42,348 nt of DNA from a virus, in the IMG/VR virus record IMGVR_UViG_3300043411_001400, positions 1-42,348 of that record; one strand, 5' to 3'. Shown one piece after another: positions 1,242 to 32,362 of the stretch. A program made the position numbers and the translations under genes. Numbering within the stretch: position 1 is the first letter of the stretch; each line of letters begins with the position of its first letter. The notes below the pieces were generated by a model. The model saw only the letters and a list, made by a program, of their open reading frames with translations. It did no database searches and was not told where the DNA came from.

Positions 1242-1267
1242 AAGTAATATTTGTATATACTTTTATG
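1242..1267 (+). promoter_or_regulatory. Putative phage promoter, motif copy 1 (leaderless start)
   Basis: The block reads TAATATTT, one base, TATATAC, three bases, TATG, and the final ATG is the start codon of the 1265 gene. No Shine-Dalgarno sequence lies between the stop of dnaE (1229) and this ATG. The copy at 32337-32362 matches over 26 bases with one mismatch, and the copy at 20026-20049 keeps the same spacing. If TATATAC acts as a -10 element, transcription would begin at or next to the ATG. The match is seen directly; promoter function is inferred. Confidence 0.6.
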
Positions 1268-1807
1268 GCAATAAAACTTTCAGAGTGGGCAAAGCGTAAT
1301 GGTATAACTTATGCCACTTGTTACAGGTGGCATAAGGAAGGTACCATGCCAGTGAAATCATACTCAACTGCAACTGGTACAATATTTGTTGAAGACGATA
1401 ATAAAGATGGAATTACATCAATAGAATTATTTCTAAAGCAAGTTGTAAAATTTTCTTCAGAGAATAAATCTATTGTGGAATTCTCTGCATTTGTTCTTGA
1501 TAATTTTAATTTATCTATGAAGAATATCGTACATACAGTACATCCATCAGAAGCTCCAGCTATAGCTAAGCAAGAAGTACAAAATCATATTAAGGATTAT
1601 ATAGAATCAGTAATGCCTGAAGAAAAGAAAGAAAAGATCAGGACGCTAAAAGATTCTATAAAAACAAAAACGCTTGAAGCTAGTATAGATGAAAATATCA
1701 AGCTAATGATAATTAATGAAATTGATGCTTCTAATGGTGTTAATGTAAGTGAAGAAGATATAGAAATTATAAATGAAATGAAAGATAAATTAAAGGAAGG
1801 AAAATGA
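1265..1807 (+). CDS. HTH DNA-binding protein with IS607/MerR-type N-terminal domain
   Basis: 180 residues. Residues 1-45 (MAIKLSEWAKRNGITYATCY, then RWHKEG, then TGTIFV) closely follow the N-terminal DNA-binding helix-turn-helix of IS607-family serine recombinases. The recombinase catalytic domain is absent: the remaining 135 residues are helical and charged, with no serine-recombinase motif. This makes it a sequence-specific DNA-binding protein rather than a transposase. The start at 1265 has no SD and sits directly on the TATATAC motif. The end overlaps the next gene by ATGA, so the two are probably translationally coupled. Possible roles are transcriptional regulation, origin binding or terminase-small-subunit-like DNA recognition; the sequence does not decide between them. 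Confidence 0.75.
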   Translation: MAIKLSEWAKRNGITYATCYRWHKEGTMPVKSYSTATGTIFVEDDNKDGITSIELFLKQVVKFSSENKSIVEFSAFVLDNFNLSMKNIVHTVHPSEAPAIAKQEVQNHIKDYIESVMPEEKKEKIRTLKDSIKTKTLEASIDENIKLMIINEIDASNGVNVSEEDIEIINEMKDKLKEGK

Positions 1808-2511
1808 AGTGTACAAATTGTCAAGCTGAAATAGAAGCTAAATGGAAGCACGCAATATCATCGAACATTTGTCCATATTGCGGTGAAAAGATATTTTCAG
1901 ATGAATTAGGTTCATTGCTATCAGCATCAAGAAAATTATTTGACTCTGTAGAAGATGGTTTTAAATATAATTTTGAAGATTGGCTTATGTCAAACTATGG
2001 TTATGTAAATGTTAGAACTCTAAAAGATAAAATGGAAGAAAAGGATAAAGTTTATCTTGACAAAGTTAAATTATTATCAAAAGATTTATTTAACGTAATA
2101 GCTACAGGCTCTATTCAAACTAATGCTTCAAAAGAACAAAGACAACAAAATCAAGTGCCAGTTGAAATGGATGCTACTGCTGCACAGATAAGAAAAAATG
2201 CTGGATTAGATGCAATGGAGCAAAGAAGAAAAGAAGCTGCTAGTAAAATAAAAAGCGGTGGATTAAATGGAGCTTCTAGCTTAGTTGTTGATTCAGAGTT
2301 AACACCAGCTGATTCTGATGAAATAGAAATGGCTGCTGCATTAGTTAATAACTATGGACCAGCTGTGACGATAAACACTAATTCAGATGATTATGAAATG
2401 GAAGGATTATATACACAAGCAATGGCAGCAGGAAGTGGAGGAAGAGATTTAGCTAGAATTCAAGCACAAATGGCAAAATCACAATCAAGAAAAGTTAAGG
2501 GTAAGATTTAA
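1804..2511 (+). CDS. Zinc-ribbon protein of unknown function
   Basis: 235 residues. The N-terminus carries a classic zinc ribbon: C3-x2-C6 and, 16 residues on, C23-PYC-G with C23/C26. The rest is polar, with an Ala/Gln-rich helical middle and a basic tail ending KSQSRKVKGKI. The start overlaps the stop of the HTH gene (ATGA) and the stop overlaps the next start (TAATG), so the three genes form one tight operon. Its place in the replication block, with a metal-binding head and a basic tail, suggests a nucleic-acid or protein adaptor, but no family could be named. Confidence 0.75.
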   Translation: MKCTNCQAEIEAKWKHAISSNICPYCGEKIFSDELGSLLSASRKLFDSVEDGFKYNFEDWLMSNYGYVNVRTLKDKMEEKDKVYLDKVKLLSKDLFNVIATGSIQTNASKEQRQQNQVPVEMDATAAQIRKNAGLDAMEQRRKEAASKIKSGGLNGASSLVVDSELTPADSDEIEMAAALVNNYGPAVTINTNSDDYEMEGLYTQAMAAGSGGRDLARIQAQMAKSQSRKVKGKI

Positions 2512-2831
2512 TGTTAAGAATCATAGATAATAAAAAAATAGAATTGTCAGATGATGAGTGGAGATTATTCAATAAGATATGTGATTCCTATAAAGAATAT
2601 GGAGGTGAATCATTATTTAGTGATCTTTTTGAGACTGATGATAAAGGAATAATACTTTTTATTAAGCCTCCATCAAAAAAGCAATCTACTTTAGAAATAT
2701 TTTTGTTTATAGTATCAGTATTCAATCATCAGCATATTAGACTAATGTATGAAAGAATAGACTATGAAGCTAAGCAAACTTCTAAAAGAATAGATGAGTT
2801 AGAAAAAAAGATAGCAGCCAATGTGTCATAG
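2511..2831 (+). CDS. Small hypothetical protein
   Basis: 106 residues, starting within the TAATG overlap with the zinc-ribbon gene. The N-terminal half resembles a small alpha/beta domain ('LRIIDNKKIELSDDEWRLFNKICDSY'), and the C-terminal end is an amphipathic, possibly coiled-coil helix ('KQTSKRIDELEKKIAANVS'). I do not recognise the family. It is last in the short operon 1265-2831, before the sigma70-like promoter at 2833. Confidence 0.65.
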   Translation: MLRIIDNKKIELSDDEWRLFNKICDSYKEYGGESLFSDLFETDDKGIILFIKPPSKKQSTLEIFLFIVSVFNHQHIRLMYERIDYEAKQTSKRIDELEKKIAANVS

Positions 2832-2832
2832 G

Positions 2833-2860
2833 TTGACGTAAAAAATAATAAACTTATATC
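2833..2860 (+). promoter_or_regulatory. Possible sigma70-type promoter for the recombinase operon
   Basis: TTGACG at 2833-2838, a 16-base spacer, then TATATC at 2855-2860. This is close to the bacterial housekeeping -35/-10 consensus. It is followed by a normal leader with AAGGAG about 8 bases before the ATG at 2882. This differs from the leaderless TATATAC motif elsewhere in the window and could be an early or middle promoter read by host polymerase. Such matches arise by chance in A+T-rich DNA, so confidence is moderate. Confidence 0.45.
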
Positions 2861-2881
2861 TACCTAACCCAAGGAGATATT

Positions 2882-3370
2882 ATGGAAGAAGAATCGACGG
2901 AAGTAGTTAAACCAAAAGTAAGTTTAGGTGATCTAATTGGTTCTGGAATGGAAGATTCGTTTTTAGATTTTGATTTTACAGAGATTCAAGAAATATTAGA
3001 AAATTTAAAAGATATAAATCCAATAGATTTGGCTCATACTGAGTTGCTTCAACAACAAGCACTTAGAGGAGCTGATATTTGTTCAGAGTACATAGGTAAA
3101 ATAATAAAAACAACTTCATATCTAGAGTCAAAACTAAATGTAGAAAAGAACAGAGCTTCATTAAATTATCAAGATCCTAAAGGTGGAAAAGTAACAGCGG
3201 ATGCAAGAAAATACGCTGGTGAAATATCAGAAGAAGTAGAAGATCTTGCTATAAAGATAGCACGGGCAAAAGGCTCAAAAACCTTGCTTGAACGTAAATA
3301 CGAAATATTGATAAAATCACATCATCATTGGAAAGATATAAGCTCTGGCTACAGAAGAAATCTAATGTAA
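2882..3370 (+). CDS. Helical protein upstream of recA; candidate recombination mediator (UvsY-like)
   Basis: 162 residues with a strong AAGGAG ribosome-binding site. The N-terminal third is acidic ('SFLDFDFTEIQEILENLKDI'). The rest is helical, and the C-terminal half is basic, ending with 'LERKYEILIKSHHHWKDIS' and 'YRRNLM'. There are no catalytic motifs. In T4-type phages a small helical mediator, UvsY, loads the UvsX recombinase on SSB-coated DNA. It has similar size and a basic, aromatic C-terminal helix. The gene here ends 14 bases before the RecA/UvsX start, so a mediator role is plausible from context. Sequence identity with UvsY is not evident by eye, so the function is an inference. 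Confidence 0.5.
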   Translation: MEEESTEVVKPKVSLGDLIGSGMEDSFLDFDFTEIQEILENLKDINPIDLAHTELLQQQALRGADICSEYIGKIIKTTSYLESKLNVEKNRASLNYQDPKGGKVTADARKYAGEISEEVEDLAIKIARAKGSKTLLERKYEILIKSHHHWKDISSGYRRNLM

Positions 3371-3383
3371 TAATAAGGAAGGA

Positions 3384-4544
3384 ATGGCAGGAAAAGCAGA
3401 TAAAATATCAGAATTTTTTAAATCATATGCCGAATCAGAAGAACAACTAAATTTTAGATTTGCAGGCGAGCAGTTATTAAATGTACCAGTTACATCAACA
3501 GGATCAATTTCGCTAGACGATGCTCTTGGTTGTGGTGGTCTTCCAAATGGAAGAATAATCCAATATTACGGACCGCCTGGATCAGGTAAATCGGCAATGT
3601 CGATGCTAGCAATAAAAAATGCTCAAGAAAAAGATCCATCAGCTAATCAAGTATTTATTGATGCTGAAAATACATTCTCGCCAATATGGGCTGAAAAGCT
3701 AGGATTAAACCTAGATAAAATAATTCTGATAGATGAAGATCTAGCTGTTAATGGTAGGAGATGCTTTGAAATGCTTTTGGGTGTTCCAAAAGAAGATATG
3801 AAACATGTCCTTAAGGGTAAATCAAAAGAAGGATTACTAGATCAAATAATTAATAAAGAAATAAACATAAATTTAATAGTTTTGGATTCATTAGGTGCAT
3901 TGATACCACCAGGAGAAGATGTTTCTGCTGTAGGTAAATCAAATATGGCTTTGATGGCAAGATTTCTATCAACTTCAATGAAGAAGCTTTCATTGGAGGT
4001 TACTAAAGCCAAGGTTCCATTTATAGTAATAAACCATAAGCGAGATAATATGGATATGTATGGTGGAGATCATACATTCTCTGGTGGAAATAGCTTTGCG
4101 CACTTTCTATCAGCAAATATTTATTTCGAGCCATATGGCGGGAAAACAGGGTTGATATTAAATGAAAATGAAGAAAGGATTGGTCAAAACATAAGAGCAA
4201 CTGTAGAGAAATCAAAATTTGGTCCACATCCTAAAAAATGTGAATTCAAACTAAAATTCGATGAAGGTATAATTGCACAAGAAGAAGAAATTGCAGATTT
4301 AGCAATAGCAAAAGGTATAATAACAAAGCTATCATCAGTATCTTATGAGTACAATGATACTAAATGGACTGGTATAGGTAAATGTTATGAGGGCGTGAAA
4401 ACAATCCCAGGTCTTATGGACGAGCTTAGAGGAAAGATTCTAAGTTTTAATACGAATAAAAAAGAATTGACAACTTCTTCCGAAGATATAAAATCTGTAT
4501 CAGACGACGTAGAAAAAATTCTAAAAAAAGCTAAGGCTAAATGA
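3384..4544 (+). CDS. recA: RecA/UvsX-family recombinase
   Basis: 386 residues, near the length of T4 UvsX and bacterial RecA. Walker A is GPPGSGKS at residues 63-70. The conserved 'VFIDAENTFSPIWAEKLGL' block follows, with the Glu typical of RecA-type ATPases. Walker B is 'INLIVLDSLGALIPP', and the L1/L2 DNA-binding region runs through 'SNMALMARFLS', 'PFIVINHKRDN' and 'TFSGGNSFAHFLSANIYF'. The protein forms filaments on ssDNA and drives strand exchange in phage recombination-dependent replication and repair. AAGGAAGGA lies just before the ATG. The stop overlaps the next start by ATGA. The family is certain; whether it is closer to RecA or UvsX would need a tree. Confidence 0.95.
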   Translation: MAGKADKISEFFKSYAESEEQLNFRFAGEQLLNVPVTSTGSISLDDALGCGGLPNGRIIQYYGPPGSGKSAMSMLAIKNAQEKDPSANQVFIDAENTFSPIWAEKLGLNLDKIILIDEDLAVNGRRCFEMLLGVPKEDMKHVLKGKSKEGLLDQIINKEININLIVLDSLGALIPPGEDVSAVGKSNMALMARFLSTSMKKLSLEVTKAKVPFIVINHKRDNMDMYGGDHTFSGGNSFAHFLSANIYFEPYGGKTGLILNENEERIGQNIRATVEKSKFGPHPKKCEFKLKFDEGIIAQEEEIADLAIAKGIITKLSSVSYEYNDTKWTGIGKCYEGVKTIPGLMDELRGKILSFNTNKKELTTSSEDIKSVSDDVEKILKKAKAK

Positions 4545-4837
4545 CGCAACAATTTGATCAATTCCAGTACAACAATTTAGATACAAGACCGCTTTACTTG
4601 ATTGTTGTAACTGGTCCTTCTAAGAAGACCCTGCATTATATCACAACGACTAAGCCAGATCATTTACCTGGCGGAATAACTGCGAAAGGATTTTATATAA
4701 ACACAGAGGAGGATAGTGCTCCTCAAGAAGAATACAAAGAAATAATTAAAAATACTGCGAAAGAAAATATAAAAGAAATTTTCTTTCCATGGCATAGAAT
4801 ATTAGAAGTTAGAAATATACTATTTAAAGCAAAATAA
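4541..4837 (+). CDS. Small hypothetical protein, beta-rich
   Basis: 98 residues, translationally coupled to recA (ATGA overlap). The first 50 residues alternate hydrophobic and polar residues, as in beta strands ('PLYLIVVTG', 'LHYITTT', 'GITAKGFYI'). The C-terminus has 'EIFFPWHRILEVRNILFKAK', in which a PWHRI core followed by a strand resembles the end of small Sm-like or RNA-repair-type domains. I do not name a function from that. The recombination operon context suggests a DNA-metabolism accessory protein. Confidence 0.6.
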   Translation: MTQQFDQFQYNNLDTRPLYLIVVTGPSKKTLHYITTTKPDHLPGGITAKGFYINTEEDSAPQEEYKEIIKNTAKENIKEIFFPWHRILEVRNILFKAK

Positions 4838-4848
4838 AGGATAAAGAA

Positions 4849-5121
4849 ATGATAACAATGACACAAGCCCAAAAAACACAATTAGCAAACGTTATATCTG
4901 AATTTGTAAAATCAAAGAGCAAGTGGCAAGGTACTACCACTAGATTACTAAAGGCTGTAAACAAATCTCTACCAGAAGATATTAGAACAACATCTGCATC
5001 TATCTTTAGGCAAAGACTTAACCTAACGGTTAATGTAATTAGGCGGCATGGTGTTAAAGTTGCGTTTACCCAAACCCCTGGGAATAACAGCAAGAAACTA
5101 ATACAATTTTCAGTGGTTTAA
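4849..5121 (+). CDS. Stand-alone winged-helix protein
   Basis: 90 residues. 'KWQGTTTRLLKAVNKSLPED', then 'FRQRLNLTVNVIRRHGVKVAF' and 'KLIQFSV' follow the pattern 'W.GT.TELL..LN ... L...LR..GI.V ... I', a winged-helix domain often found at the C-terminus of phage or plasmid primases and primase-helicases. Here it is a gene of its own between recA and ssb. It probably binds DNA, perhaps as an accessory to the Toprim primase at 7481. An alternative in-frame ATG at 4858 exists; 4849 is preferred because AAGGA lies about 8 bases upstream. Domain resemblance is from memory of the pattern. Confidence 0.6.
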   Translation: MITMTQAQKTQLANVISEFVKSKSKWQGTTTRLLKAVNKSLPEDIRTTSASIFRQRLNLTVNVIRRHGVKVAFTQTPGNNSKKLIQFSVV

Positions 5122-5140
5122 GCTAATAAAATAACATTTA

Positions 5141-5167
5141 GATATGGGGGTTTGATATCCCCGTATC
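5141..5167 (+). promoter_or_regulatory. Hairpin in the leader of the gp32-like SSB gene
   Basis: GATATGGGGG pairs with TCCCCGTATC (10 pairs including two G-U) around a 7-base loop. It is not followed by a T-run but by roughly 70 bases of almost pure A/T with no evident structure, leading to AAGGATCAT and the SSB start at 5242. T4 gene 32 represses its own translation by nucleating on a folded element upstream and coating an unstructured A/U-rich leader. The layout here is comparable. It could also be a weak terminator or an RNA processing site. Confidence 0.5.
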
Positions 5168-5241
5168 AAAAATAGATCAATAATAAATTAGAAAAAAATA
5201 ACGTAATAAAGACTGTTAAAATAATAAATAAAAAGGATCAT

Positions 5242-5958
5242 ATGACATATTCATTCGGAGAAGTAGCTTGGGGTTCAGAAGTAGAAATCGATAAAAAGCC
5301 AGCAGCCAAAACCTCAGATTTATACATGAGATTAAAAGATGGCGATAATGAACTTAGAATTGTAACCCCAATGTATCAATATACTTTTCACAAATACAAG
5401 CCCAATGAAACTGATAAGGGTTATGGTACAAAAATTAGATGCTCGGCAACTAAAGAAAACGGTGGGAACTGCGCTTTATGTAAAGCTGGAGAAAAGGTTT
5501 CACTTGGTTGGTATATAGGAGTAATTGATAGGGCTTCAAACTCATATAAAATCCTATCAATGTCTAAACTAGCAATGACTCAACTTCTAGCTCTAGTTAG
5601 AAACATCAAACACTGGGGAGACCCAACAAAGTATGATATTAACATCATACAAAACCCAAATGGTGGACCAACTGCATTTTACAATGTTCAAGGTATAGGT
5701 AAATCACCTCTATCGCCAGAAGATCAAGTGCTAAAAGATAAAGCAGATCTAGAGTTTTTAAAAGCAAGAGTTGTGCCACCAACTCCAGAAGATACTCTAG
5801 ATAAGATGAACAAAGTCCTCTCAGGTGAACCACTATGGTTATCAAAAGAAGAATTTGCCGCTAAGAATAAAAAAGGCGGCGCAGCTGCCACTCCAGCAAA
5901 AAAGAAAACAGTTGTTCCAGTAGTTGCAGATGATGAAGAGTTTGAAGAAGTAAACTAA
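5242..5958 (+). CDS. ssb: Single-stranded DNA-binding protein, T4 gp32-like
   Basis: 238 residues. The core carries a histidine and three cysteines as H50-x16-C67-x9-C77-x2-C80. The C-x9-C-x2-C spacing and upstream His match the structural zinc site of T4 gp32. Aromatic residues suited to base stacking surround it ('MYQYTFHKY', 'LGWYIGVID'). After a Lys-rich linker (KNKKGGAAATPAKKKT) the protein ends in an acidic tail, VADDEEFEEVN, the protein-interaction tail typical of SSBs. It coats ssDNA during replication and recombination and would work with the recombinase at 3384 and the polymerase. AAAAGGATC before the ATG supports the start. A strong terminator follows. Confidence 0.88.
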   Translation: MTYSFGEVAWGSEVEIDKKPAAKTSDLYMRLKDGDNELRIVTPMYQYTFHKYKPNETDKGYGTKIRCSATKENGGNCALCKAGEKVSLGWYIGVIDRASNSYKILSMSKLAMTQLLALVRNIKHWGDPTKYDINIIQNPNGGPTAFYNVQGIGKSPLSPEDQVLKDKADLEFLKARVVPPTPEDTLDKMNKVLSGEPLWLSKEEFAAKNKKGGAAATPAKKKTVVPVVADDEEFEEVN

Positions 5959-5978
5959 CAAAACAATAAACTAATAAA

Positions 5979-6013
5979 AGACCTACAGGACAAATCTTGT
6001 GGGTCTTTTTTTT
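5979..6013 (+). terminator. Rho-independent terminator after ssb
   Basis: AGACCTACAG (5979-5988) pairs with TTGTGGGTCT (5997-6006) around an 8-base loop, followed by eight T residues (6006-6013). It closes the recombination operon. The next start codon is only 20 bases further on. Confidence 0.88.
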
Positions 6014-6020
6014 ATTACGA

Positions 6021-6035
6021 TATAAACCCAATATG
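6021..6035 (+). promoter_or_regulatory. Putative TATAAA element for a leaderless resolvase gene
   Basis: TATAAACCCA at 6021-6030 lies directly before the ATG at 6033, in the 20 bases between the terminator T-run and the start codon. No SD is present. The arrangement resembles the TATATAC-ATG motif at 1265, 20047 and 32360, but the upstream TAATATTT part is not conserved. Confidence 0.4.
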
Positions 6036-6584
6036 AAAAAAATATTGGGTTTTGACGTTTCCTCAACAGTAACAGCATATTGTTGTCTAGAATTAGATGG
6101 TGGTAAAATAATAAACATAAAGCATGGATATATCAAGCCACAAAAAACTGGTAGTATATTTGAAAGACTTGAAAAGTTCTCAAAAGATATATCCGCTATA
6201 ATATCTTCTATTAATCCAGATGAAGTTGCAATAGAAGATATTATACAATTTATGGGGAGAAACTCAAGTGCAAATACAATAATAACATTGGCATTATTTA
6301 ATAGAACAGTTGGATTAGCTTCTCATAAATTAAACCTTACTCCAACAATGTATGCAGTTTCATCTATAAGAAGTAAAATAAAGGTTGGCTCTAAATTACC
6401 AAAAAAAGAAGAGATACCTGAAATACTTGAGTCCAAGTTTAATATAAAATTCCCTTATGTATATGCAAAACCAAAAGCTGGGAGTAATTTAGCAGTAGGT
6501 AAAATAAAACAAGAATCTTATGATTTAGGAGATGCATTTGCAGTAGCAATCTGCCATGCAATTAAGAAAAATGAACTTAAATGA
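6033..6584 (+). CDS. ruvC: RuvC-like Holliday junction resolvase
   Basis: 183 residues from the internal ATG at 6033. An upstream in-frame extension (from 5997) would begin inside the terminator and is rejected. The RNase H fold residues are visible: D8 in 'KKILGFDVSST', E68 in 'PDEVAIEDII', and D164/D167 in 'ESYDLGDAFAVA'. This is the set of four acidic residues used by RuvC to bind two metal ions. The protein would cleave four-way junctions or branched DNA before packaging. It is the first gene after the ssb terminator, has no SD, and overlaps dnaJ by 14 bases. Confidence 0.85.
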   Translation: MKKILGFDVSSTVTAYCCLELDGGKIINIKHGYIKPQKTGSIFERLEKFSKDISAIISSINPDEVAIEDIIQFMGRNSSANTIITLALFNRTVGLASHKLNLTPTMYAVSSIRSKIKVGSKLPKKEEIPEILESKFNIKFPYVYAKPKAGSNLAVGKIKQESYDLGDAFAVAICHAIKKNELK

Positions 6585-8236: not shown

Positions 8237-8293
8237 GTTATATAGAAACATATAATAGATAATAGCTGATATAATGTCCTATTAGGAGAACAT

Positions 8294-8743
8294 ATGAGTG
8301 AAAGAAGGGAAAGAAAGAATAGAAGTGAGAAATATCAATTTTTATTGTTGGAGACAGCTTGCTCGGCTGAAATGATGGAGGCTTTTTCAAATTCAGAATC
8401 TATTGAGCATAGGCTAAATCCTTTTAAATATGATGAAGAGATAGAAGAATTATATGATCAACTAAAAGAAGCTTTTTGGAATATAGTCGATAATAATTTA
8501 ACCACCAGACAAAAGCAAGTGATTAAGCTATATTGTCAAAATAAAACACAAACAGAAATAGCTAAAGAACTTGGAGTAAATCAATCATCTATAACTAAAA
8601 GCATAAATGGTAACGTTGATTATAAAAATGGTAGAAGATGTTATGGTGGGGCGACCAGAAAAGTTGTTAAGCTTGTAGAATCAGATGAAAATATAAAAAG
8701 AATTCTTAAAAGAATAATGGAATTGAAAGAAGAGAAAATTTAA
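8294..8743 (+). CDS. Sigma-70 region 4-like transcription factor
   Basis: 149 residues. Residues 69-105 ('LTTRQKQVIKLYCQNKTQTE', then 'IAKELGVNQSSITKSING') form a helix-turn-helix typical of sigma region 4, preceded by an acidic helical stretch that could touch RNA polymerase. A clear region 2 (-10 recognition) is not evident. The gene has its own leader with TATAAT at 8270-8275 and AGGAGAA before the ATG. It may be a phage sigma factor or sigma-like activator that directs later transcription, possibly from the TATATAC motifs. A general HTH regulator is the alternative. Confidence 0.65.
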   Translation: MSERRERKNRSEKYQFLLLETACSAEMMEAFSNSESIEHRLNPFKYDEEIEELYDQLKEAFWNIVDNNLTTRQKQVIKLYCQNKTQTEIAKELGVNQSSITKSINGNVDYKNGRRCYGGATRKVVKLVESDENIKRILKRIMELKEEKI

Positions 8744-8801
8744 ATCTGGCACTAAATGCTAATAATACTAAATAATAATTAGAATTATGCTGGAGATAAA
8801 A

Positions 8802-9251: not shown

Positions 9252-9266
9252 TGGATAAAAAAATAG

Positions 9267-18131: not shown

Positions 18132-18133
18132 AT

Positions 18134-18155
18134 ATTACTTTCATATACCTATATG
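18134..18155 (+). promoter_or_regulatory. Putative leaderless-start motif before terL (degenerate)
   Basis: ATTACTTTCATATACCTATATG contains ATATAC followed by four bases and the ATG, in a 21-base gap with no Shine-Dalgarno. It keeps the ATATAC-to-ATG distance of the stronger copies at 1242, 20026 and 32337, but the upstream TAATATTT half is degenerate. Confidence 0.4.
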
Positions 18156-20004: not shown

Positions 20005-20049
20005 AAATAATATTTGTATATAAAACTAATATTTTTATATACAAATATG
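20005..20049 (+). promoter_or_regulatory. Tandem promoter-like motif before the portal gene
   Basis: A full motif (TAATATTT, T, TATATAC, AAA, TATG) ends in the start codon at 20047, and a second half-copy (TAATATTTGTATATA) lies about 20 bases upstream. The whole 43-base gap between terL and the portal gene consists of these elements and contains no SD. Confidence 0.55.
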
Positions 20050-22962
20050 TCAAAATCAGGTGATTATTTAAAAGCTAAGTATGGATCAGAGACAATTACA
20101 CCAAATGTAATAAAAAGTGTATCTCAGTATAGAAGGGGTGAAATAGAAGAATCTCTTCAAACAACATATCCACACAGTGCGCAATCTTCTTCATATACAA
20201 CGGCAACAAGTTTAAAGAAAAACGCTCAAGTCTCATCGAATGGAGGTGGATACAAAGGTACTGGCGATTCAGCTAATCAGGTTCCAAATGTATATTCTCC
20301 ATTATGGCTTGATAGCAATTTAGCATTACCAAGAGATAGAGCAACGATAAATGCTTGGCTTCGTGCATTTTATGCATTGAATCCATTTGTGCATAACTCT
20401 ATTAATTTACATTCAACTTATCCAATTAGTAAATTAAATATAAAATGTAAAAACAAGAAGATAGAGAATTTCTTTAATGATATGTGTGAAGAAATTGATC
20501 TAATGAATGTTTGCGTCCAGATAGCACAAGAATACTGGCTATTAGGTGAAGCATTTCCATTTGTTGAATTAGATGAAGAGAAATTAAAATGGAGTAGGAT
20601 AACAATATTAAATCCTGATTATATGATTCTTAAGAGGACAGTAATTGAAGACGAGCCTCTTATTATGATGAAGCCAGATCAGAATCTTAAAACAATTGTT
20701 ACATCGAATAAAGCCGCTGATATTGAACAGAGAAAACAGTTAAATCCATATATTGTTAATTGTGTACTTAAGGGTCAGAACATACCATTGGATAATTTTC
20801 AAGTTTCACATCTTGCAAGAAGAATTTCTCCATACGAAAACAGAGGAACTGGATTACCAGTTTGTATTTTTCGTCAACTTTGTTTGCTTGACAAGTTAAG
20901 GGAATGTTATGATGAAGATACAGAAGTCCTAACACAAAATGGATTTAAGAAAATAAACGAAATTCTTGAATTTACTACCAACCAAAATGATAAAATTGTT
21001 GGTCATTTTAATGGTCTAAATGTAAAATTGCAAGACGATATAAAAATAGCTTGTTATGACGAAGCTACAGATTCTATAAAATATCAATCTCCAAATAATT
21101 TTACATTGGGAAATTATTCTGGCGAAATGTATCATTTTTCTGGAAATAAAGTTGATGTTAAAGTTACCCCCAATCATAAAATGTATTTTAGAGAAAAATT
21201 ACAAAAAAATTATAAAGGATATTACTCAGATTTTCAAGCGGGTTCGGCAGAATATATTGCGTCAAAGAAGAAATATTTCAAATTTAAAACACTTGCAAGA
21301 TTCGAAGATGGTATTACTCCAGAGTATACTAAAGTACTTGGCACTAATATTCCAACAAAATTATATCTAAAAGTACTAGGCTATATTCTATCGGAGGGAT
21401 GTGTATATCAAAATTATGATAAGAAAAGATATGATAATTCAATAAGTATTTCGCAAGCAACTGATTCAGATTGCTACGAGGACATCAAGAATTCATTTAA
21501 TGAATTTGGAAATTTATTATCATTAAAAGTTCATAATAAAACATCAGACAAAACAGATAAAAATAAAGAAAAATGGGAGGGTAGAATTGGTAGTAAAGAT
21601 TTAACAAATTATTTTATTAAAGAATTAAGCTATGATTTGAATAAAAAATGTAATTCTTTTAATAAAAAAATACCAAGACAAGTATTTAATTATAAAAAAG
21701 AAGATATGAAGATTTTACTGGATGCATTAGTAAAAGGTGATGGCAATGAAAATGTTAGTAAATACGGTACCGATACCATAGGATATTCATATTGCACTGT
21801 ATCTAAACAATTATGTGAAGACGTTTACGAATTAGTTTATAAATGTGGATATTTACCTAATATAGTAACACATCTAAGAAAAACTAAAAATGATCAAAAA
21901 GAATATTATGTTACTTGGTCAAATTGTTCATATGGCGACGAACCCATTTTAAATATTGGTGGGTCATTACGTAATAAGAAAAATAATGGTGCTGATGTAA
22001 AAAAAGTAAATTATGAAGGTGCAGTTTGGTGTTTTGAGGTTCCAACAGGTTATTTTGTTACTAGAAGAAATGACAAGATTACTATTCAAGGAAATTGTAA
22101 ATTTGCTCAAGCTGATAATATGATTAATCCATTAACTGTTGTTAAGATAGGTAATGATAATTATAAACCAACTCCTGATGTATTAGAATCATGGAGGCAA
22201 TTATTTGAAGCCGCTCAGTATAATAAAGATTTTAAGATTTTCACAAATGAAGCTGTAGATATTTCTGCTGTTGGTAAGGGTGCTGCAATATATGATACAT
22301 CTGGTGATGTTACTCAATTGATAAAAGAAATATTAATTGGTTTACAAGTTCCATCTGTATTAATGGATGGTGGATCTGATACTACATATGCTAATGGTGG
22401 TGTTGCATTAGATGTACTAAGACAAAGATATATGCAATTTAGAAACATGTTAGCTTCTTGGTTAAAGAGAAAGATATTTGCACCAATATCAAAAATGAAT
22501 GAATTTTACGAATATCAAGATAAAGAAAAAGTTCTAATAATACCAGAAGTTGATTGGAATCACATGTCATTATTTGATGCTGGTGATTATATTCAAAATC
22601 TAGTTGGGCTAACAACTGGTGGTGAAGAAGGGAAAAGAGTAGCAGTTCAAGAGCTACATAGAAGTATGGGTTTAGATTACAATGATCAGTTAAGAAAGAT
22701 AAAGAAAGAAAATATTTCAAATGCTATTTTAAAGAAAGAGCAAATAGCATTGGATGCAATGACATTAAGTGAGCTTAGGGCATTAACAGAAGAAGATGAA
22801 ATTCAAGAAAAGGAAGGACAACAAGAAGCTAAGGCAGGTGAAGAGGGTGGTGGAGGATTACCAGGAATGCCTGGATCAGATTTTGGTCCACCAGATTTAG
22901 GTGCTCCACCATCTCCTGGACCTTCTGAACCACCTCCTTCACCAGAGCCACCAAAACCCTGA
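20047..22962 (+). CDS. Portal protein, interrupted by an in-frame intein
   Basis: 971 residues as translated. The ATG at 20047 ('MSKSGDYLKAKYG') is preferred to a TTG at 20014 that lies inside the promoter motif. Removing the intein (20905-22095) leaves 574 residues, a normal portal size. N-extein features include 'NAWLRAFYALNPFVHNSINL', typical of portal crown/wing helices. The C-extein has 'EILIGLQVPSVLMDGGSDTT' and 'LRQRYMQFRNMLASWLKRKI', as in phage portals. The C-terminus is a Gly/Pro-rich tail ('GAPPSPGPSEPPPSPEPPKP'). It forms the dodecameric DNA entry ring that docks the terminase encoded just upstream. Confidence 0.88.
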   Translation: MSKSGDYLKAKYGSETITPNVIKSVSQYRRGEIEESLQTTYPHSAQSSSYTTATSLKKNAQVSSNGGGYKGTGDSANQVPNVYSPLWLDSNLALPRDRATINAWLRAFYALNPFVHNSINLHSTYPISKLNIKCKNKKIENFFNDMCEEIDLMNVCVQIAQEYWLLGEAFPFVELDEEKLKWSRITILNPDYMILKRTVIEDEPLIMMKPDQNLKTIVTSNKAADIEQRKQLNPYIVNCVLKGQNIPLDNFQVSHLARRISPYENRGTGLPVCIFRQLCLLDKLRECYDEDTEVLTQNGFKKINEILEFTTNQNDKIVGHFNGLNVKLQDDIKIACYDEATDSIKYQSPNNFTLGNYSGEMYHFSGNKVDVKVTPNHKMYFREKLQKNYKGYYSDFQAGSAEYIASKKKYFKFKTLARFEDGITPEYTKVLGTNIPTKLYLKVLGYILSEGCVYQNYDKKRYDNSISISQATDSDCYEDIKNSFNEFGNLLSLKVHNKTSDKTDKNKEKWEGRIGSKDLTNYFIKELSYDLNKKCNSFNKKIPRQVFNYKKEDMKILLDALVKGDGNENVSKYGTDTIGYSYCTVSKQLCEDVYELVYKCGYLPNIVTHLRKTKNDQKEYYVTWSNCSYGDEPILNIGGSLRNKKNNGADVKKVNYEGAVWCFEVPTGYFVTRRNDKITIQGNCKFAQADNMINPLTVVKIGNDNYKPTPDVLESWRQLFEAAQYNKDFKIFTNEAVDISAVGKGAAIYDTSGDVTQLIKEILIGLQVPSVLMDGGSDTTYANGGVALDVLRQRYMQFRNMLASWLKRKIFAPISKMNEFYEYQDKEKVLIIPEVDWNHMSLFDAGDYIQNLVGLTTGGEEGKRVAVQELHRSMGLDYNDQLRKIKKENISNAILKKEQIALDAMTLSELRALTEEDEIQEKEGQQEAKAGEEGGGGLPGMPGSDFGPPDLGAPPSPGPSEPPPSPEPPKP
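20905..22095 (+). mobile_element. Intein with LAGLIDADG homing endonuclease, inserted in the portal gene
   Basis: 397 residues, in frame. Splice block A starts at Cys1 ('CYDEDTEVLTQNGFKKINEI'). Block B is 'VDVKVTPNHKMYF', with the T..H motif. The two LAGLIDADG helices are 'LKVLGYILSEG' and 'ILLDALVKGDG', whose acidic residues bind metal. Blocks F/G are 'AVWCFEVPTGYFVTRRN' and 'ITIQGN', ending in Asn followed by Cys+1 of the C-extein (22096). The usual penultimate His is replaced by Gly, as in a number of phage inteins. Self-splicing would join '..LDKLRE' to 'CKFAQADN..'. Both endonuclease motifs look intact, so homing may be active. Confidence 0.92.
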
Positions 22963-25343: not shown

Positions 25344-25816
25344 ATAGATACAAACAAGCATCTAAATCTTTAGATTTATCTGAACTAGATGAATTTAGCT
25401 ACTCCTCAGTATTAAGAGAGGTTAGGTCTCAATTATCACCTGAAGAATATATTGATTTTATCAAAATATATAAAGGATTTTTCGATAAAGCATATTTATC
25501 AGACAAAGAAAATGTAAAGCAGGTATCTATGTGCAAAACATTACTTCAATTTGGCAAAAAAATAACAATAGACTTAGATAAAAATCTTTTTAAAGAATAT
25601 ATGGGTGAGTCTATAGCTAAGGATGCAGCAAATAAATACTTTAATCTTATAAAATCTGGGTTTAATATAAACGAAAGAACGATAAATATAGTTAAAGCAG
25701 AATTAGTGGATATGGAAAACTCTAATATGCCAGTTGTTATTTATATAAACTCAGATATTAACAAATATGGCGCTTTAAAAGAAAAAATAGTGGATATACT
25801 TTTGGAGCACGAATGA
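25340..25816 (+). CDS. Small hypothetical protein
   Basis: 158 residues, ATGA-coupled on both sides. It is helical in the first two thirds ('SSVLREVRSQLSPEEYIDFI') and ends with a strand-helix unit ('MPVVIYINSDINKYGALKEK'). No family is recognised. Tight coupling to the phosphatase gene suggests co-expression. Confidence 0.6.
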   Translation: MNRYKQASKSLDLSELDEFSYSSVLREVRSQLSPEEYIDFIKIYKGFFDKAYLSDKENVKQVSMCKTLLQFGKKITIDLDKNLFKEYMGESIAKDAANKYFNLIKSGFNINERTINIVKAELVDMENSNMPVVIYINSDINKYGALKEKIVDILLEHE

Positions 25817-26568: not shown

Positions 26569-27238
26569 AAAATCTTATTTGGTTACTATGGCTTATACTT
26601 CTTTTACTGAAGAAATTTCAAAAGAAGAATGTAGCAGAGCAAATATGTTATTATCATATCTTGATTATGCTAGGAAAACATTAGATGAAGCTTGTAAATA
26701 TCTTGATACAATAGCTGTTCCATTTAAAAATTCAAAAGAGTCTGGCACAGCAATAACATCAGATCAAATATTAAAAGATAGAGCGCATCTAAGACAATTT
26801 AAAGAAGAAGTAATTAAAAAGTTCAATCACTTTAAAGTGTATGCTGGATATGCTTATGGTGGATTTGAGTATTTCTCTTCAGACCCACAAATATTAGGGT
26901 TATCAAAAAGTTTATTTACCTCTATAGATACACTTGAAAATAAGGTGAATGGATTTATTGCTTTATTTGATAATTTAGATAGCGCTGATTTCGTTGATAA
27001 TATATTAAAAATGATTGGAGATGATTCTGAGGAGTCTAAAGGTAAAGATTCTATAAAGAAGCATTGTGAAACTATAAAGACATTAATTGAAGACAGGATT
27101 CAGCATCATATAGCAAAACATGTTCTTGGTAGTAGCTGGCTTGACTCTGTATCAGGTAAAGTCAGTATAACTCCACAGAAGAGAGTTCCAAAGATAACTA
27201 AGTACTATGAAGATCTAAAAAGTAATAAAAATGTTTGA
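26561..27238 (+). CDS. Hypothetical helical protein
   Basis: 225 residues from the ATG at 26561, chosen because GGAGGG lies 7 bases upstream; a longer in-frame start at 26525 lies upstream of this RBS. It overlaps the phosphatase stop. It is mostly helical ('ANMLLSYLDYARKTLDEACK') with an aromatic patch 'HFKVYAGYAYGGFEYFSSD'. A basic tail ends 'ITKYYEDLKSNKNV'. No known family is recognised. It is likely part of the virion or assembly block. Confidence 0.6.
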   Translation: MIKKSYLVTMAYTSFTEEISKEECSRANMLLSYLDYARKTLDEACKYLDTIAVPFKNSKESGTAITSDQILKDRAHLRQFKEEVIKKFNHFKVYAGYAYGGFEYFSSDPQILGLSKSLFTSIDTLENKVNGFIALFDNLDSADFVDNILKMIGDDSEESKGKDSIKKHCETIKTLIEDRIQHHIAKHVLGSSWLDSVSGKVSITPQKRVPKITKYYEDLKSNKNV

Positions 27239-27251
27239 GATTAGGAGATAA

Positions 27252-27362
27252 ATGTTAATAAAGCATGGTGATGTAAAGATAGTTAAGGTATATACAGAAG
27301 AAGAAAAGAAAGAATTAGAGAAAGATGATCTTGAAGAGAAGAAAGACAAAACTAAAAAATAA
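27252..27362 (+). CDS. Very small charged protein (36 aa)
   Basis: ATG at 27252 with a strong TTAGGAGA ribosome-binding site 4 bases upstream, 14 bases after the previous stop. The product 'MLIKHGDVKIVKVYTEEEKK' continues as a Glu/Lys/Asp-rich helix ending DKTKK. The SD, operon position and coding-like composition support a real gene. The function is unknown. Confidence 0.6.
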   Translation: MLIKHGDVKIVKVYTEEEKKELEKDDLEEKKDKTKK

Positions 27363-27547
27363 TTTTGTTTATATTAATAAGTGAATATAAAAATGTAAAT
27401 ATTGTTCAATTAAATTAGAAAGATCATATTATGCCTCTAAGAAAGTTTGGCTGACATACGAGTAAATTTAATGCCAATATGTTATAGATATAAATTTAAG
27501 CACAAGAATTTAAAACTACTAAATGTATGGCTTAAAGATAAGGTATA
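27363..27547. other. Intergenic region before the protease/scaffold gene
   Basis: 185 A+T-rich bases without a strong hairpin. They hold a 7-codon frame (27431) and a 25-codon frame, 27471-27548 ('MPICYRYKFKHKNLKLLNVW' then LKDKV), whose TAA overlaps the ATG of the large gene as TAATG. The 25-codon frame has no evident SD. It may be a leader peptide for translational coupling or may be chance. Confidence 0.4.
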
Positions 27548-30500
27548 ATGTTTAAAAAATTTGGCGAATCTACAAAATGCAAGATAGAGGAATCTGATTC
27601 TTGCACTTCTTTTATAAACGAAACAATATTAAACGAATTTAAAAAAACAGCTAAAGAATTAAAAATATTAGCTCCTTCTTCAGAAGATTTTCTTTATTTT
27701 TCTACAATTATGATGCACGCTGCCGAATCATCTGCAATAAATGATGATGGTACACCAAAACTAACAAAATCCGGTGAAACTGTAAATGTTGGTTGGGACA
27801 CAAGCGAAGGGACATGGAAGTGGAAAACTAATGATCCCACTATAAAACCATATAAAAATGCTAACGGCGATATTTTCCCTGAGAAAGAGCTAGTAACAGC
27901 ACATAAATTATGGATTAGTAAACCATTGTGTATAGATCATAAATCTTCTTCTGTAGACCATGTGCGTGGTTACATAGTTGATACTTATTATGATAGAGAG
28001 CTAAAAAGAGTTGTTGCTTTGTGTGCATTGGATAAAAAGAATTATCCTGATTTAGCTCATAAGGTATCTGCTGGAATTACACCAAATGTATCAATGGGTA
28101 CTGGTGTATCAATGGCTGTATGTACAGAACATGGTTGTCATAAAGTTGCAAGAGTTGAACAAGACTTTTGTAAGCATATGAAAGCAAAGTCAGGATACGG
28201 TGAAATTAACATAGGATTAAATCCAATTGAGTTATCAATTGTTGTTAATGGAGCTGACCAGAAGGCTAAGATAAAGCATATAATCGCCGCTGCAAATGCG
28301 CTAAATAATTATGTTGAAATGAAAGAGAATCAACTAAATAAATTAGCAAAAGAGAATTTTTCAGCTTCTCTTAATTATAGTAATGATGGAGTTGAAGGAT
28401 CAAAATCAGCTGGTGGATCTATTAATTTTAATACAAACTCAATTGAAGAGTTTAAGGCAGAGCTTGAAAAAGCACTAGAACAACTAGAATCAATTTCAAA
28501 AGAAGAAGTTGAAATAGAAAAAGAAATGAGTAAGGATTCTGGTGATGCTGGTAATAATAATGAATCTGATTCAAATACGGATTTCAATATTGCGGCTCCT
28601 GGACAAAAATTGGCAAGCAAAGATAGTTTAGAGTTGAGCGCAGAGCTTGAAGAAGCAAAGAAAGCAATAGCTTCACTAGAAGGCAAGCTAGAGAATCTAA
28701 AAAACAATTTTAACCAAATGTTAAATAGGGATGAAATGTCTGAATTAAAAAAGAATAGCTATTATCAAGGTACAGTAGAGCCAACCCCAGGCAAGCCACA
28801 ATATGCCAGAGAACCAGAAAACGAAAAACTTCGTGAAGATGGTGATAGACATATGCAAGTTGATGATCTAGGTGGCACTGAAGGTATGCACCCAGGCGTT
28901 AAAAGCGTCTCTATGTCTGAACTAGAACGAAAGAAACTATTAGCAAGAGCTGAGTCAGAAGAACGCGCAATGAGGAGAAACGCAATATTGGAAAATGCAA
29001 AAAAAGCCCTAAAAACTGAAGCATACTATCAAGGTGGTGGTGGTGTTAATGAACCAACTCCAGGTAAACCAAAATATCCAGTAGACAAAACAAATGTTGA
29101 TCTAAGAGATGATGACAAACATATGAATGGTCAAAAACCATTTCCAGATGTTGGCAGCGTTGATGGATTACATCCAAGTCCTTCTTCAGTTCAACAAAAA
29201 GATGAACTAAAAAGAAAAGAAATGCTTCATCGCGCTGGTCTAGAAGGTAAGTTTGTTAAAGTTACCAATGCTAATGGCTCAGTAAATTTTGATAAGACAG
29301 CTTGGGAAATATATAATGATGGCTCCCTAATACTAAAAGCTTCAGTACATGAACTAACAGGCGGAAGATCAGATCTATTCTATGATTCGATTGCTACAAA
29401 AGAATTCGGCAAAAGCCTCATTTCAAAAATTAAAGTTGAAGGATCAGATTCAGTTGCTAGACTATATAAATCAGCTCAAGAAATGCCAGTTCCTCCAGCT
29501 CCTCCAGCACCACCCGCAGACGGTGGACAACCACCAATGGATATGCCACAAGATCCAAATGCAATGCCAGCCACACCAGAACAAGATCTAAGCGATCCAA
29601 AGACAAAAGCCCTAGTATTATCAGAAGAAGTTAGAGATAAATCTTCAGATTTACATGAAGCTGTTAAAGCACTAGCAGGCGAAAAAGACGAAATAGGTGC
29701 TGCTGATCAAGCTACCAAGTCAGCTTCCTTTACACTAAAAAGACTACAAGCTAGCAGAAAAGAAATAAATGAAGAACTAATTTCAGCATTTAAAGAATGC
29801 ATTGCTAATCTAGATGACCATTCAAAAGAACTAGATATGGTAAATGAAATATGCGGAAGAAAAATAGCTAAGACAGTAGACTCAAATTTTGTTAACTATA
29901 TGAAAGATGAATTTGATGTTGTTTTCAAAGAAGCAAAAGCTTCACTAGACAATGCAGACGAGCTAATCGGCGCATTTGTTAGATATGCAAGAGGAACAGA
30001 TTATCTAGTCAAGCAAGCTCAACTAGAAGGATCAGAATCCGTTGATGCTCTAGGTGAATCATCTGGAGAATCTGAAACAGTTGAATCAGCAATCCAATCA
30101 GCACTAGAAGATGTTGGTGGTGCAGAGGATCTAGATATGTCTTGGGATGCATCTGATGCAGATGATAAAGACAAAGATGATGAAGACGATTGTGACGCAG
30201 ATGATAAAGAAAAAGATGACGAAGACGATTGCGATGCAGATGATAACGATGCAGACATTACGGCTACAAAGGAAGAATTAGCGAAAGTAAAAGCAAACCC
30301 AGGTGACAAAGTGACAGTAAAAGCTTCATTAGCAACAAGAGAAGGAAGAGATGCTCTAAGAGCAAAACTAGCAGCTGACACTCTAAAGGTTAGCCCACTA
30401 TTACACGATGCACATCCAAAAGGTGGCACTGTAATGATCAAAGATGTATCAGATAATCTAGGTAAAGTTGAAGATCTAGAAGAAATACATGATGTAATGA

Positions 30501-31036
30501 TGGATGTAGCCAAGGCTCCAGTTAAAGTTAGAAAAGAAGCTGAAACAATCAGAGCACTAGTTGCTGAAGGTTCAATAACAGAAGAAGACTTCCCAAGCCT
30601 AATAGCTGAAGGTGTTGATAAGGCTGCAATTGAGTATTACAAGAAATATTGGGCAGATTCAGATAAAGAAGGAAAAGAATTTGCTGCTGCTCTAGTAAGC
30701 GACGTAAAGAAATCAAAAGCAAGTGATGATTTCGAGGCTGAAAAAGTAAAACTATCAAGAGCCTATGAACTAGCTTATGAAATGGTTTCAAAGGGTCTAT
30801 GTGGAAGCGATAGAAAATCAATTGGCGAAAAAGTAGCTGAATTGGTTAAGGTTAATGATGATGGTTTTGAAACAGTTAAAAATGTTGTTGCTTCATACAA
30901 GCCAGTTGTAAAAACAGCAATGAGAATTCCATCAGTAGGTCATGTGGATTCACTTGGTGGCGAAAAAGTTGAGAATGAAGATCTAACTTCACAACTATCA
31001 GCAGCTCTATCAAGTGTTTCAAAAAGAATGTTCTAA
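27548..31036 (+). CDS. Prohead-protease-like domain fused to a large scaffold-like protein
   Basis: 1162 residues. Residues 60-250 resemble phage prohead maturation proteases: 'YKNANGDIFPEKELVTAHKL', 'PLCIDHKSSSVDHVRGYIVD' with candidate catalytic H131, and 'VSAGITPNVSMG' with candidate serines S174 and S182. A Cys/His cluster follows (C192, C197, C208, H210), then 'IGLNPIELSIVVNGAD'. Residues 290-400 are coiled coil. Residues 404-560 hold a duplicated 'YYQG..PTPGKP' unit. A 'WEIYNDGSLILKASVHELTG' domain, a proline linker, long helices, an acidic Asp-repeat, the AHP module (953-992) and a conserved-looking end 'RIPSVGHVDS' follow. It probably acts as scaffold and processes head proteins, possibly itself. 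The N-terminal protease call is by pattern and not certain. Confidence 0.7.
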   Translation: MFKKFGESTKCKIEESDSCTSFINETILNEFKKTAKELKILAPSSEDFLYFSTIMMHAAESSAINDDGTPKLTKSGETVNVGWDTSEGTWKWKTNDPTIKPYKNANGDIFPEKELVTAHKLWISKPLCIDHKSSSVDHVRGYIVDTYYDRELKRVVALCALDKKNYPDLAHKVSAGITPNVSMGTGVSMAVCTEHGCHKVARVEQDFCKHMKAKSGYGEINIGLNPIELSIVVNGADQKAKIKHIIAAANALNNYVEMKENQLNKLAKENFSASLNYSNDGVEGSKSAGGSINFNTNSIEEFKAELEKALEQLESISKEEVEIEKEMSKDSGDAGNNNESDSNTDFNIAAPGQKLASKDSLELSAELEEAKKAIASLEGKLENLKNNFNQMLNRDEMSELKKNSYYQGTVEPTPGKPQYAREPENEKLREDGDRHMQVDDLGGTEGMHPGVKSVSMSELERKKLLARAESEERAMRRNAILENAKKALKTEAYYQGGGGVNEPTPGKPKYPVDKTNVDLRDDDKHMNGQKPFPDVGSVDGLHPSPSSVQQKDELKRKEMLHRAGLEGKFVKVTNANGSVNFDKTAWEIYNDGSLILKASVHELTGGRSDLFYDSIATKEFGKSLISKIKVEGSDSVARLYKSAQEMPVPPAPPAPPADGGQPPMDMPQDPNAMPATPEQDLSDPKTKALVLSEEVRDKSSDLHEAVKALAGEKDEIGAADQATKSASFTLKRLQASRKEINEELISAFKECIANLDDHSKELDMVNEICGRKIAKTVDSNFVNYMKDEFDVVFKEAKASLDNADELIGAFVRYARGTDYLVKQAQLEGSESVDALGESSGESETVESAIQSALEDVGGAEDLDMSWDASDADDKDKDDEDDCDADDKEKDDEDDCDADDNDADITATKEELAKVKANPGDKVTVKASLATREGRDALRAKLAADTLKVSPLLHDAHPKGGTVMIKDVSDNLGKVEDLEEIHDVMMDVAKAPVKVRKEAETIRALVAEGSITEEDFPSLIAEGVDKAAIEYYKKYWADSDKEGKEFAAALVSDVKKSKASDDFEAEKVKLSRAYELAYEMVSKGLCGSDRKSIGEKVAELVKVNDDGFETVKNVVASYKPVVKTAMRIPSVGHVDSLGGEKVENEDLTSQLSAALSSVSKRMF
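28757..29240 (+). repeat. Internal tandem duplication in the protease/scaffold gene
   Basis: Two diverged units of about 65-75 residues: copy 1 from 28757 (SYYQG, EPTPGKPQY, LREDGDRHM, GMHPG, ERKKLLARA) and copy 2 from 29021 (AYYQG, EPTPGKPKY, LRDDDKHM, GLHPS, LKRKEMLHRA). The order of landmarks is identical. The divergence shows an old duplication kept by selection. Confidence 0.85.
30158..30247 (+). repeat. 39-base acidic tandem repeat
   Basis: About 2.3 copies of a 39-base unit starting at 30158, 30197 and 30236, coding for 'ADDKDKDDEDDCD', 'ADDKEKDDEDDCD' and 'ADDN'. The units differ mainly at third positions. The result is a poly-acidic linker with one Cys per unit inside the protease/scaffold protein. 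Confidence 0.85.
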
Positions 31037-31045
31037 AATAAACCA

Positions 31046-31086
31046 ATGAATGGGGAGATTATGTCTCCCCATTCATCAACATTTTT
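31046..31086 (+). terminator. Strong hairpin after the scaffold gene; possible attenuating terminator or mRNA 3' stabiliser
   Basis: ATGAATGGGGAGA (31046-31058) pairs perfectly with TCTCCCCATTCAT (31064-31076) around a 5-base loop. The T5 run begins 5 bases after the stem, which is not ideal for termination, so partial read-through into the 31103 gene is likely. Confidence 0.6.
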
Positions 31087-31102
31087 AAAAGGTTAATAAA
31101 CT

Positions 31103-31708
31103 ATGAAAAAAAACGAAATTTCAGATATGCTTGCAGAAGGGATGAATACTTACCTAGAAAGTCCAGAATTTAAGTTCTTATTTAGAAAAGCTGATTTAGA
31201 TCTAGAAACTCCAGTTGAAGAGCTAGATGGTTTAGGTGGTGGTTCTGAATCAGTTGATGATGTTGCTGGTGCTAGCTCACTAGATGATCTAGATCTAGAA
31301 CAAGAACTAAATGATCTAGGAACAGAAGAAGCTGGTCCATCAGATCCATTAAGCGAAGAACTAAGCGAATATTCAGCTAATTCAAATATGGCTGTAGATG
31401 GTTTACTATCTGCTTCAGCAGCTCTAGATGAACTAGGTGCAGTTCAAGCTTCAGCAGATTTACTAAAACTAGCATCTATGGTTGTAGAAGCCAAGAAAAA
31501 GAAAGTAAAAGAAGTTGAAGATAAGAAAAAAGGTAAAGACAAGAAAGAAGAAAAAGAAGAGAAGAAAGCCAAAGAAAAAGCTAAGAAAGACGAAGCTGAT
31601 GCTCGTGATAAGAAAATGAAAGAAAAAGAAAAGAAAGCCAAAGAGAAAGAAAAAGAAGAAGAGAAGAAAGCTAAAGAAAAAGCAAAAAAAGAAAAGGCTA
31701 AAAAATAA
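31103..31708 (+). CDS. Hypothetical protein with acidic middle and Lys/Glu repeat tail
   Basis: 201 residues with a weak AAGG ribosome-binding site. Residues 30-95 are acidic ('SSLDDLDLEQELNDLGTEEA'). Residues 99-131 form the recurring two-helix segment ('SASAALDELGAVQASADLLK'). Residues 131-201 are almost only Lys, Glu, Ala and Asp, with 'EEKKAKEKAKK' occurring twice, predicted as a single long charged helix. Leucines near the start of the gene are mostly CTA, as in other putatively abundant proteins here. It may be a scaffold or internal head protein. No family is recognised. Confidence 0.6.
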   Translation: MKKNEISDMLAEGMNTYLESPEFKFLFRKADLDLETPVEELDGLGGGSESVDDVAGASSLDDLDLEQELNDLGTEEAGPSDPLSEELSEYSANSNMAVDGLLSASAALDELGAVQASADLLKLASMVVEAKKKKVKEVEDKKKGKDKKEEKEEKKAKEKAKKDEADARDKKMKEKEKKAKEKEKEEEKKAKEKAKKEKAKK

Positions 31709-32265
31709 TGTTTAAAGAGGATAGCTTTGAGGAAGAACTATATTCTTCCATGAAGAAAAATTTAACTAGTAACTCTAAAACTGAAGATTTAAAGGTTAGA
31801 GCAAGCAACCTTAAAGTTATCCAATCTTTAAATTTTGTTGCTGAGATACTAGAGAAAAATAAATTCACTAAACAAGCTGAAGCAATAACTTCTTTCATGG
31901 GTAAAAGAATTGGTCTTAAAAATGTGCTAAGTTCTTTTCAAGATAAAGAATTCATAGAAAGGCTAGATAAAGATACTTCAGATATAATAAGCTTTCATTT
32001 CAAAAATGCCGGCATAGATAGCTCTAAATTTATAAATAAAAAATACTTTAATGAATATGAGCAGCTATTGGATGTTAAGTATTCAAGAGCAAGCAAGCCA
32101 AGTATGACATCTGAAAAACCACCAGTATTATATAAAGGTGAAATTTACAAAGATAATAAATATTTAGAGAACATAAAAAACATAATAGCTAATTCAACAA
32201 AAAATCAAGAGATAGATGGCGCTGATAATATTAGTGTCACATCAGAAGATTTTGAAGACGAATAA
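31708..32265 (+). CDS. Small hypothetical protein
   Basis: 185 residues, coupled to the previous gene by TAATG. Residues 38-68 ('IQSLNFVAEILEKNKFTKQA' and on) match the recurring two-helix segment. The C-terminal part is polar and ends acidic ('NISVTSEDFEDE'). It is the last gene before a strong terminator. No family is recognised; it is possibly an assembly protein. Confidence 0.6.
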   Translation: MFKEDSFEEELYSSMKKNLTSNSKTEDLKVRASNLKVIQSLNFVAEILEKNKFTKQAEAITSFMGKRIGLKNVLSSFQDKEFIERLDKDTSDIISFHFKNAGIDSSKFINKKYFNEYEQLLDVKYSRASKPSMTSEKPPVLYKGEIYKDNKYLENIKNIIANSTKNQEIDGADNISVTSEDFEDE

Positions 32266-32291
32266 TAAAATCTAGTATTCTTAACTTTATG

Positions 32292-32317
32292 GGAGCGATA
32301 CACTCGCTCCTTTTTTT
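32292..32317 (+). terminator. Rho-independent terminator
   Basis: GGAGCGA (32292-32298), a TACAC loop, TCGCTCC (32304-32310), then seven T residues. This is a canonical intrinsic terminator ending the 27548-32265 transcription unit. Confidence 0.92.
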
Positions 32318-32336
32318 ATTTAATAAAAGTATATAA

Positions 32337-32362
32337 AAGTAATATTTATATATACTTTTATG
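32337..32362 (+). promoter_or_regulatory. Putative phage promoter, motif copy (leaderless start)
   Basis: Identical over 26 bases, bar one position, to the motif at 1242-1267: TAATATTT, A, TATATAC, TTT, TATG. It sits 20 bases after the terminator T-run, and its final ATG starts the 32360 gene. An extra ATATAAAAG lies just upstream. There is no SD. A promoter is required here because the upstream unit is terminated. Confidence 0.65.

Follow-up and report, generated by a model that had tools for sequence, protein, structure and literature searches.

A 42,348-nucleotide fragment of a phage genome (the window; IMGVR_UViG_3300043411_001400, ~31% GC) carries a sequence block that recurs on the start codons of three genes, and at two of these, the portal gene and a gene starting at 32360, the block makes up one half of a palindrome that ends within the ATG. 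The best explanation, to which we assign a probability of about 0.5, is that the block represents an AUG-adjacent promoter of a giant-phage clade, supplemented at the portal gene and at 32360 by a hairpin that hides the start codon. We posit that this promoter initiates at the AUG or within ~8 nt of it, which would leave no room for a Shine-Dalgarno (SD) sequence and would give rise to a leaderless message or one with an ultra-short leader. At the portal gene and at 32360, the promoter would be nested in the palindrome, with its TATATAC core inside the 3′ arm. RNA that reads through from upstream would fold, the 3′ arm would hold the AU of the AUG, and translation would be poor; RNA made from the nested promoter would lack the 5′ arm, leaving the AUG free. 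Production of the protein would then depend mainly on the activity of the gene's own promoter, which is probably a late promoter. The presence of a palindrome with the AUG in a hairpin arm shifts the likely function of these sites from that of a plain leaderless promoter to the promoter-gated release of a hidden start. The components of this proposal differ in strength: the block sites are very probably promoters, a transcription start at the AUG or within 8 nt of it is probable from the position of the elements, and a functional hairpin lock, which draws on predicted folds, stands at even odds. We infer the start of transcription, its timing, leaderless translation, repression by the hairpin, and the unity of the promoter class alike.

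The block, TAATATTT-N-TATATAC-NNN-TATG, occurs exactly three times in the window, every copy lying on the forward strand and on a start codon: at 1245–1267 (ATG at 1265, a gene for a helix-turn-helix (HTH) protein), 20027–20049 (ATG at 20047, the portal gene), and 32340–32362 (ATG at 32360). These copies bear out the first-pass annotation of this DNA, which had described one block with identical spacing at the three starts. The annotation had also pointed to degenerate relatives of the block; this holds for terL, which is preceded by a copy with three mismatches (18133–18155, forward strand) and whose orthologue in the related contig C has TAATATTTTTACATAGAAATATG at equal spacing with two mismatches, but not for the gene at 36186, where TATATAG-TT-ATG differs in spacing and is a weak relative. 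A comparison with chance frequency, which the annotation had proposed as a check, favors the whole block: with up to three mismatches allowed, there are seven matches in the window versus 0.13 ± 0.34 expected from dinucleotide shuffles, whereas TATATAC-NNN-TATG alone, with up to two mismatches, is not enriched (33 versus 28.7 expected in the window), so the signal resides in the block as a unit. A search of 2.9 million viral contigs for the exact block returned three contigs with one match each, and the same system is not evident in these three.

Two giant phage contigs are collinear with the window: C (JAIXLO010000160.1, 383,427 bp), which was binned with a Chitinophagales MAG and has counterparts of 41 of the 44 window ORFs, and D (IMGVR_UViG_3300010403_000705 from IMG/VR, 432,844 bp). 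The three window start codons are credible because the C orthologues of the portal and 32360 genes begin at the identical codon and that of the HTH gene begins two codons away. The contrast drawn in the annotation between these three SD-less genes and the many others that have an SD sequence stands (0/3 versus 21/41 window genes by our own criterion). The 1265 protein has an N-terminal HTH by sequence, with a weak profile match; tblastn finds its homologues only in C and D, and a pattern scan found none. The 32360 protein is poorly predicted structurally (mean pLDDT of 33), so a virion role for it is suggested by gene order only. The portal gene (20047–22962) contains a ~400-codon insertion that is missing from the C and D portals and is probably an intein; in C, the recA (~139–140 kb) and terL (~156–157 kb) orthologues are each split by ~1 kb, and these interruptions are probably introns or inteins.

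An intrinsic terminator with a T-run (32291–32318, forward strand), missed in the earlier reading, lies just 5′ of the third block copy, and the promoter of 32360 must therefore fit into the ~40 bp before the ATG; no terminator was detected in the terL–portal interval. A standard σ70 −35/−10 scan did not detect the sites at 20047 and 32360 and gave one match at 1265, at chance level. Transcription from the window sites could start on the A of the ATG, or up to ~8 nt upstream if a TAATAT at −20 acts as the −10 element; TAATA at −20 is found 13 times in C plus the window versus 2.25 expected, an excess that includes the window genes and is weak after correction for multiple testing. The C orthologue of the HTH gene is preceded by TATAAT, 6 nt, and ATG, and that of 32360 has a related block ~50 nt upstream, followed by a leader with a weak SD. 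Elsewhere in the window, an SD-less start at 40783, separated by 23 bp from the preceding terminator and with TTTATATATTAACATTTATTTATG present (40733–40782), is another candidate short-leader start.

Strong, if indirect, evidence for the promoter comes from relatives of the window, which include three further large contigs (E, 447 kb; F, 452 kb; H, 394 kb). Among relatives that share the portal locus, TGATATAT is the most over-represented intergenic 8-mer (29 versus 2.7), and TGATATA forms a sharp peak before the ATG in D, E, F, and H. Across C, D, E, F, and H, TG[A/T]TATA lies 15–17 nt before the ATG at 39 of 2826 predicted starts, as compared to 3 of 8402 internal Met codons, and the spacing peaks at exactly 16 nt (24 of the 39). 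With the window added to the five relatives, the odds ratio is 30 (p 1e-19); the 15–17 nt range and the [A/T] choice were made after the profile had been seen, so this p errs on the low side, though the peak would easily withstand any reasonable correction. Genes in the relatives were called crudely, from the first ATG of each long ORF; this introduces noise yet would not by itself produce a peak at 16 nt. In the usual σ70 geometry, TG-n-TATATN plus 6 nt places +1 on the A of the ATG. A pyrimidine at −1, found at 35 of the 39 TG[A/T]TATA starts and at about half of starts overall, and the lack of an SD are both what initiation on the AUG would predict. TG[N]TATA at 15–17 nt precedes 34 genes without an SD and none with one in D, E, F, and H, an exclusion that is partly trivial because both elements would occupy the same bases. 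The products of the TG[A/T]TATA genes include nucleases (HNH, LAGLIDADG, and GIY-YIG homing endonucleases, endonuclease VII-like proteins, and RuvC-like resolvases) as well as DNA methyltransferases, glycosyltransferases, and peptide deformylase; for several of them, the match to a family profile begins with the first residues, lending support to the start codons assigned in the relatives. In E and F, the genes for RuvC-like proteins sit directly behind a terminator-like hairpin, as 32360 does in the window.

The window itself lacks TG[A/T]TATA at 15–17 nt before any of 43 starts (one of 230 internal Met codons has it), and its TATATAC core, at −11 to −5, is shifted ~2 nt toward the ATG compared with the element of the relatives; the two may therefore, but need not, form one class. 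The annotation's idea of a promoter class that delivers SD-less, leaderless or nearly leaderless starts is partly supported: it gains from the relatives and not from the spacing in the window. TGATATAAT, the extended −10 form of the relatives, does occur in the window (8267–8275, forward strand), 27 nt before the ATG of the 8294 gene, with a leader and an SD; this gene (8294–8743, forward strand) encodes a small protein with a σ70 region 4-like HTH that is conserved in C and D, and its product is no more than a candidate promoter-specificity factor.

The palindromes, also overlooked in the earlier reading, are near-perfect and 39 bp long, and each has the block as its right half and extends up to and including the AT of the ATG. 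The portal palindrome (20010–20048, forward strand) is 95% complementary, with a predicted RNA fold of −14 kcal/mol (z −4.27), a long AT stem, and a 7-nt loop; that at 32360 (32323–32361, forward strand) is 89% complementary, with a fold of −11.2 kcal/mol (z −2.87). They rank second and third in length among the inverted repeats of the window, and the predicted RNA hairpins at both genes pair the AU of the AUG. At 1265, a 29-bp inverted repeat (1238–1266, forward strand) with 9-bp arms, ATAAAAGTA and TACTTTTAT, gives a weak RNA fold (z −1.07) and looks as though 10 bp had been lost compared with the 32360 site. When stems that close on the start codon are ranked over 41 genes, portal, 32360, and 1265 come out on top, all terminating on the T of the ATG. 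Start-region accessibility over 41 window genes is lowest at the portal gene and third lowest at 32360, and replacement of the 5′ part with sequence from other genes frees the start at the portal gene (p <0.005) and at 32360 (p 0.005), with no such effect at the HTH and terL genes. The predicted accessibility of the AUG is ~0.2 in read-through RNA and 0.5–0.7 in RNA that begins at −8 or 0. A search with Rfam gave no window matches above the gathering score.

Accessibility is likewise low at the C starts of the portal gene (rank 17 among 563 genes) and 32360 (rank 2), and the same replacement frees the start of 32360 (p <0.005) and, more weakly, of the portal gene (p 0.045), pointing to partial conservation of predicted sequestration in read-through RNA at these two orthologues. 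Pair-by-pair covariation between the window and C portal hairpins is unsupported; the C hairpin is shifted and bulged in the alignment, which limits the claim to both starts being sequestered. The case for a lock is weakened by the weak repeat at 1265 and by the D orthologues of these genes, which have no palindrome and no start sequestration; in addition, less read-through RNA would reach a lock at 32360, given the terminator upstream. The hairpin as a property of the promoter class throughout the clade was rejected on an arm-swap control, in which 6 of 40 swaps were as low. The most far-reaching form of our proposal, a clade-wide set of leaderless mRNAs made via one AUG-fused extended −10 in which, in some members, the transcription start, the start codon, and the lock are a single 39-bp element, is tentative, and we hold it to be somewhat improbable.

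A simpler reading, close to the earlier one, is that the sites form a plain leaderless or short-leader promoter class and that the palindromes are functionless by-products of self-complementary AT elements. TATATA and AATATT are indeed self-complementary, a 19-bp tandem repeat of the unit could yield part of each palindrome, and the signal seen throughout the clade is that of a promoter, with no general hairpin. We nonetheless consider this reading unlikely: the outer arms lack self-complementarity and change in concert between the sites (ATTTG/CAAAT at 20047, AAAAG/CTTTT at 32360), both palindromes finish at the same position within the ATG, and sequestration is seen again at two C orthologues. 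The palindrome could instead act at the DNA level, as the operator of a dimeric regulator; the 1265 HTH protein might fill this role and control its own gene, the portal gene, and 32360. That one of the three genes encodes a putative HTH protein and that the palindromes overlap the promoter would suit an operator, for which, however, neither an end on the AUG nor joint variation of the two arms would be required; C and D have HTH orthologues, yet D is without the palindrome and C has only an altered form, and we regard this reading as quite improbable. Still more doubtful is an RNase III-type processing hairpin on a long mRNA, in which cleavage and not a promoter would create the short 5′ end: the long AT stems, the loop at 20047, and a terL–portal interval in which no terminator was found are compatible with processing, but 32360 sits behind a terminator, and the −10-like element and the pyrimidine at −1 in the relatives fit initiation rather than cleavage. 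Chance, for which the AT-rich composition and the lack of enrichment of the short core might speak, is scarcely credible given the excess of the block, the placement of all three exact copies on start codons, the palindromes, and the related copy before C terL.

The proposed AUG-adjacent promoter with a start-hiding hairpin resembles a known arrangement. In the T4-type late genes I-TevI, segB, soc, and e and in Aeh1 mobE, a late promoter is nested in a hairpin that hides the initiation site (PMC2988022). As in that arrangement, read-through RNA from the portal and 32360 loci would have its initiation site covered, the RNA of the nested promoter would lack the 5′ part of the hairpin, and homing endonuclease genes are prominent among the promoter-fused genes of the relatives. 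The T4 cases differ in hiding the SD and keeping a leader, whereas the window genes are SD-less and place the AUG itself within the stem. Pairing of the initiation region is predicted at the portal gene and 32360 of the window and at C 32360; it is weaker at the C portal gene and weak at 1265. The window element is not the T4 late element TATAAATA, which is read by gp55, and only a σ region 4-like protein was found, so the window system would work like the T4 late system without being a member of it.

In mycobacteria, Deinococcus, and other bacteria, leaderless genes are known whose −10 element immediately precedes the start codon. The relatives share with them the absence of an SD and a −10-like element spaced for +1 on the A of the ATG; here, in contrast, the lineage is a giant-phage clade, and a palindrome is added at two genes. 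A phage-encoded multisubunit RNA polymerase recognizes the late promoters of phiKZ/AR9-type phages; phiKZ transcripts start on the G of TATG, and AR9 leaders span 26–491 nt (PMC5312081). Giant phages, a short late element, and the letters TATG are common to both settings, but we rejected this type of promoter for the relatives, as the RNA polymerase beta profile (PF00562) has no match in the D, E, F, and H records.

If the promoter-and-hairpin proposal is true, promoter choice would be coupled to translation without SD sequences, a compact natural element would restrict translation to promoter-specific RNA, and mobile endonucleases and other stand-alone genes, which in T4 are of the sort guarded by hairpins, would be expressed from leaderless messages in giant phages. 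Within the incompletely covered literature, no account of leaderless promoters in huge phages was found.

Other recurrent elements were seen in the relatives. A region at ~294–363 kb of C (loci L034–L038) holds a dense array of σ54-type promoter sequences, TGGCA-N6/7-TTGC[A/T], of which the contig has 35 forward and 11 reverse as compared to one in a reversed-sequence control; this end of the contig may be host contamination. Many of these sequences are followed by a conserved box, GATNNTGGATCGCATCTWAGTAAG, and then a gene, and more copies of the box occur at 9–86 kb of C without the σ54 part. In D, at ~243–330 kb, a CCCATC box stands 25–140 nt before many genes, at more than 40 intergenic sites, and is perhaps the counterpart of the C box.
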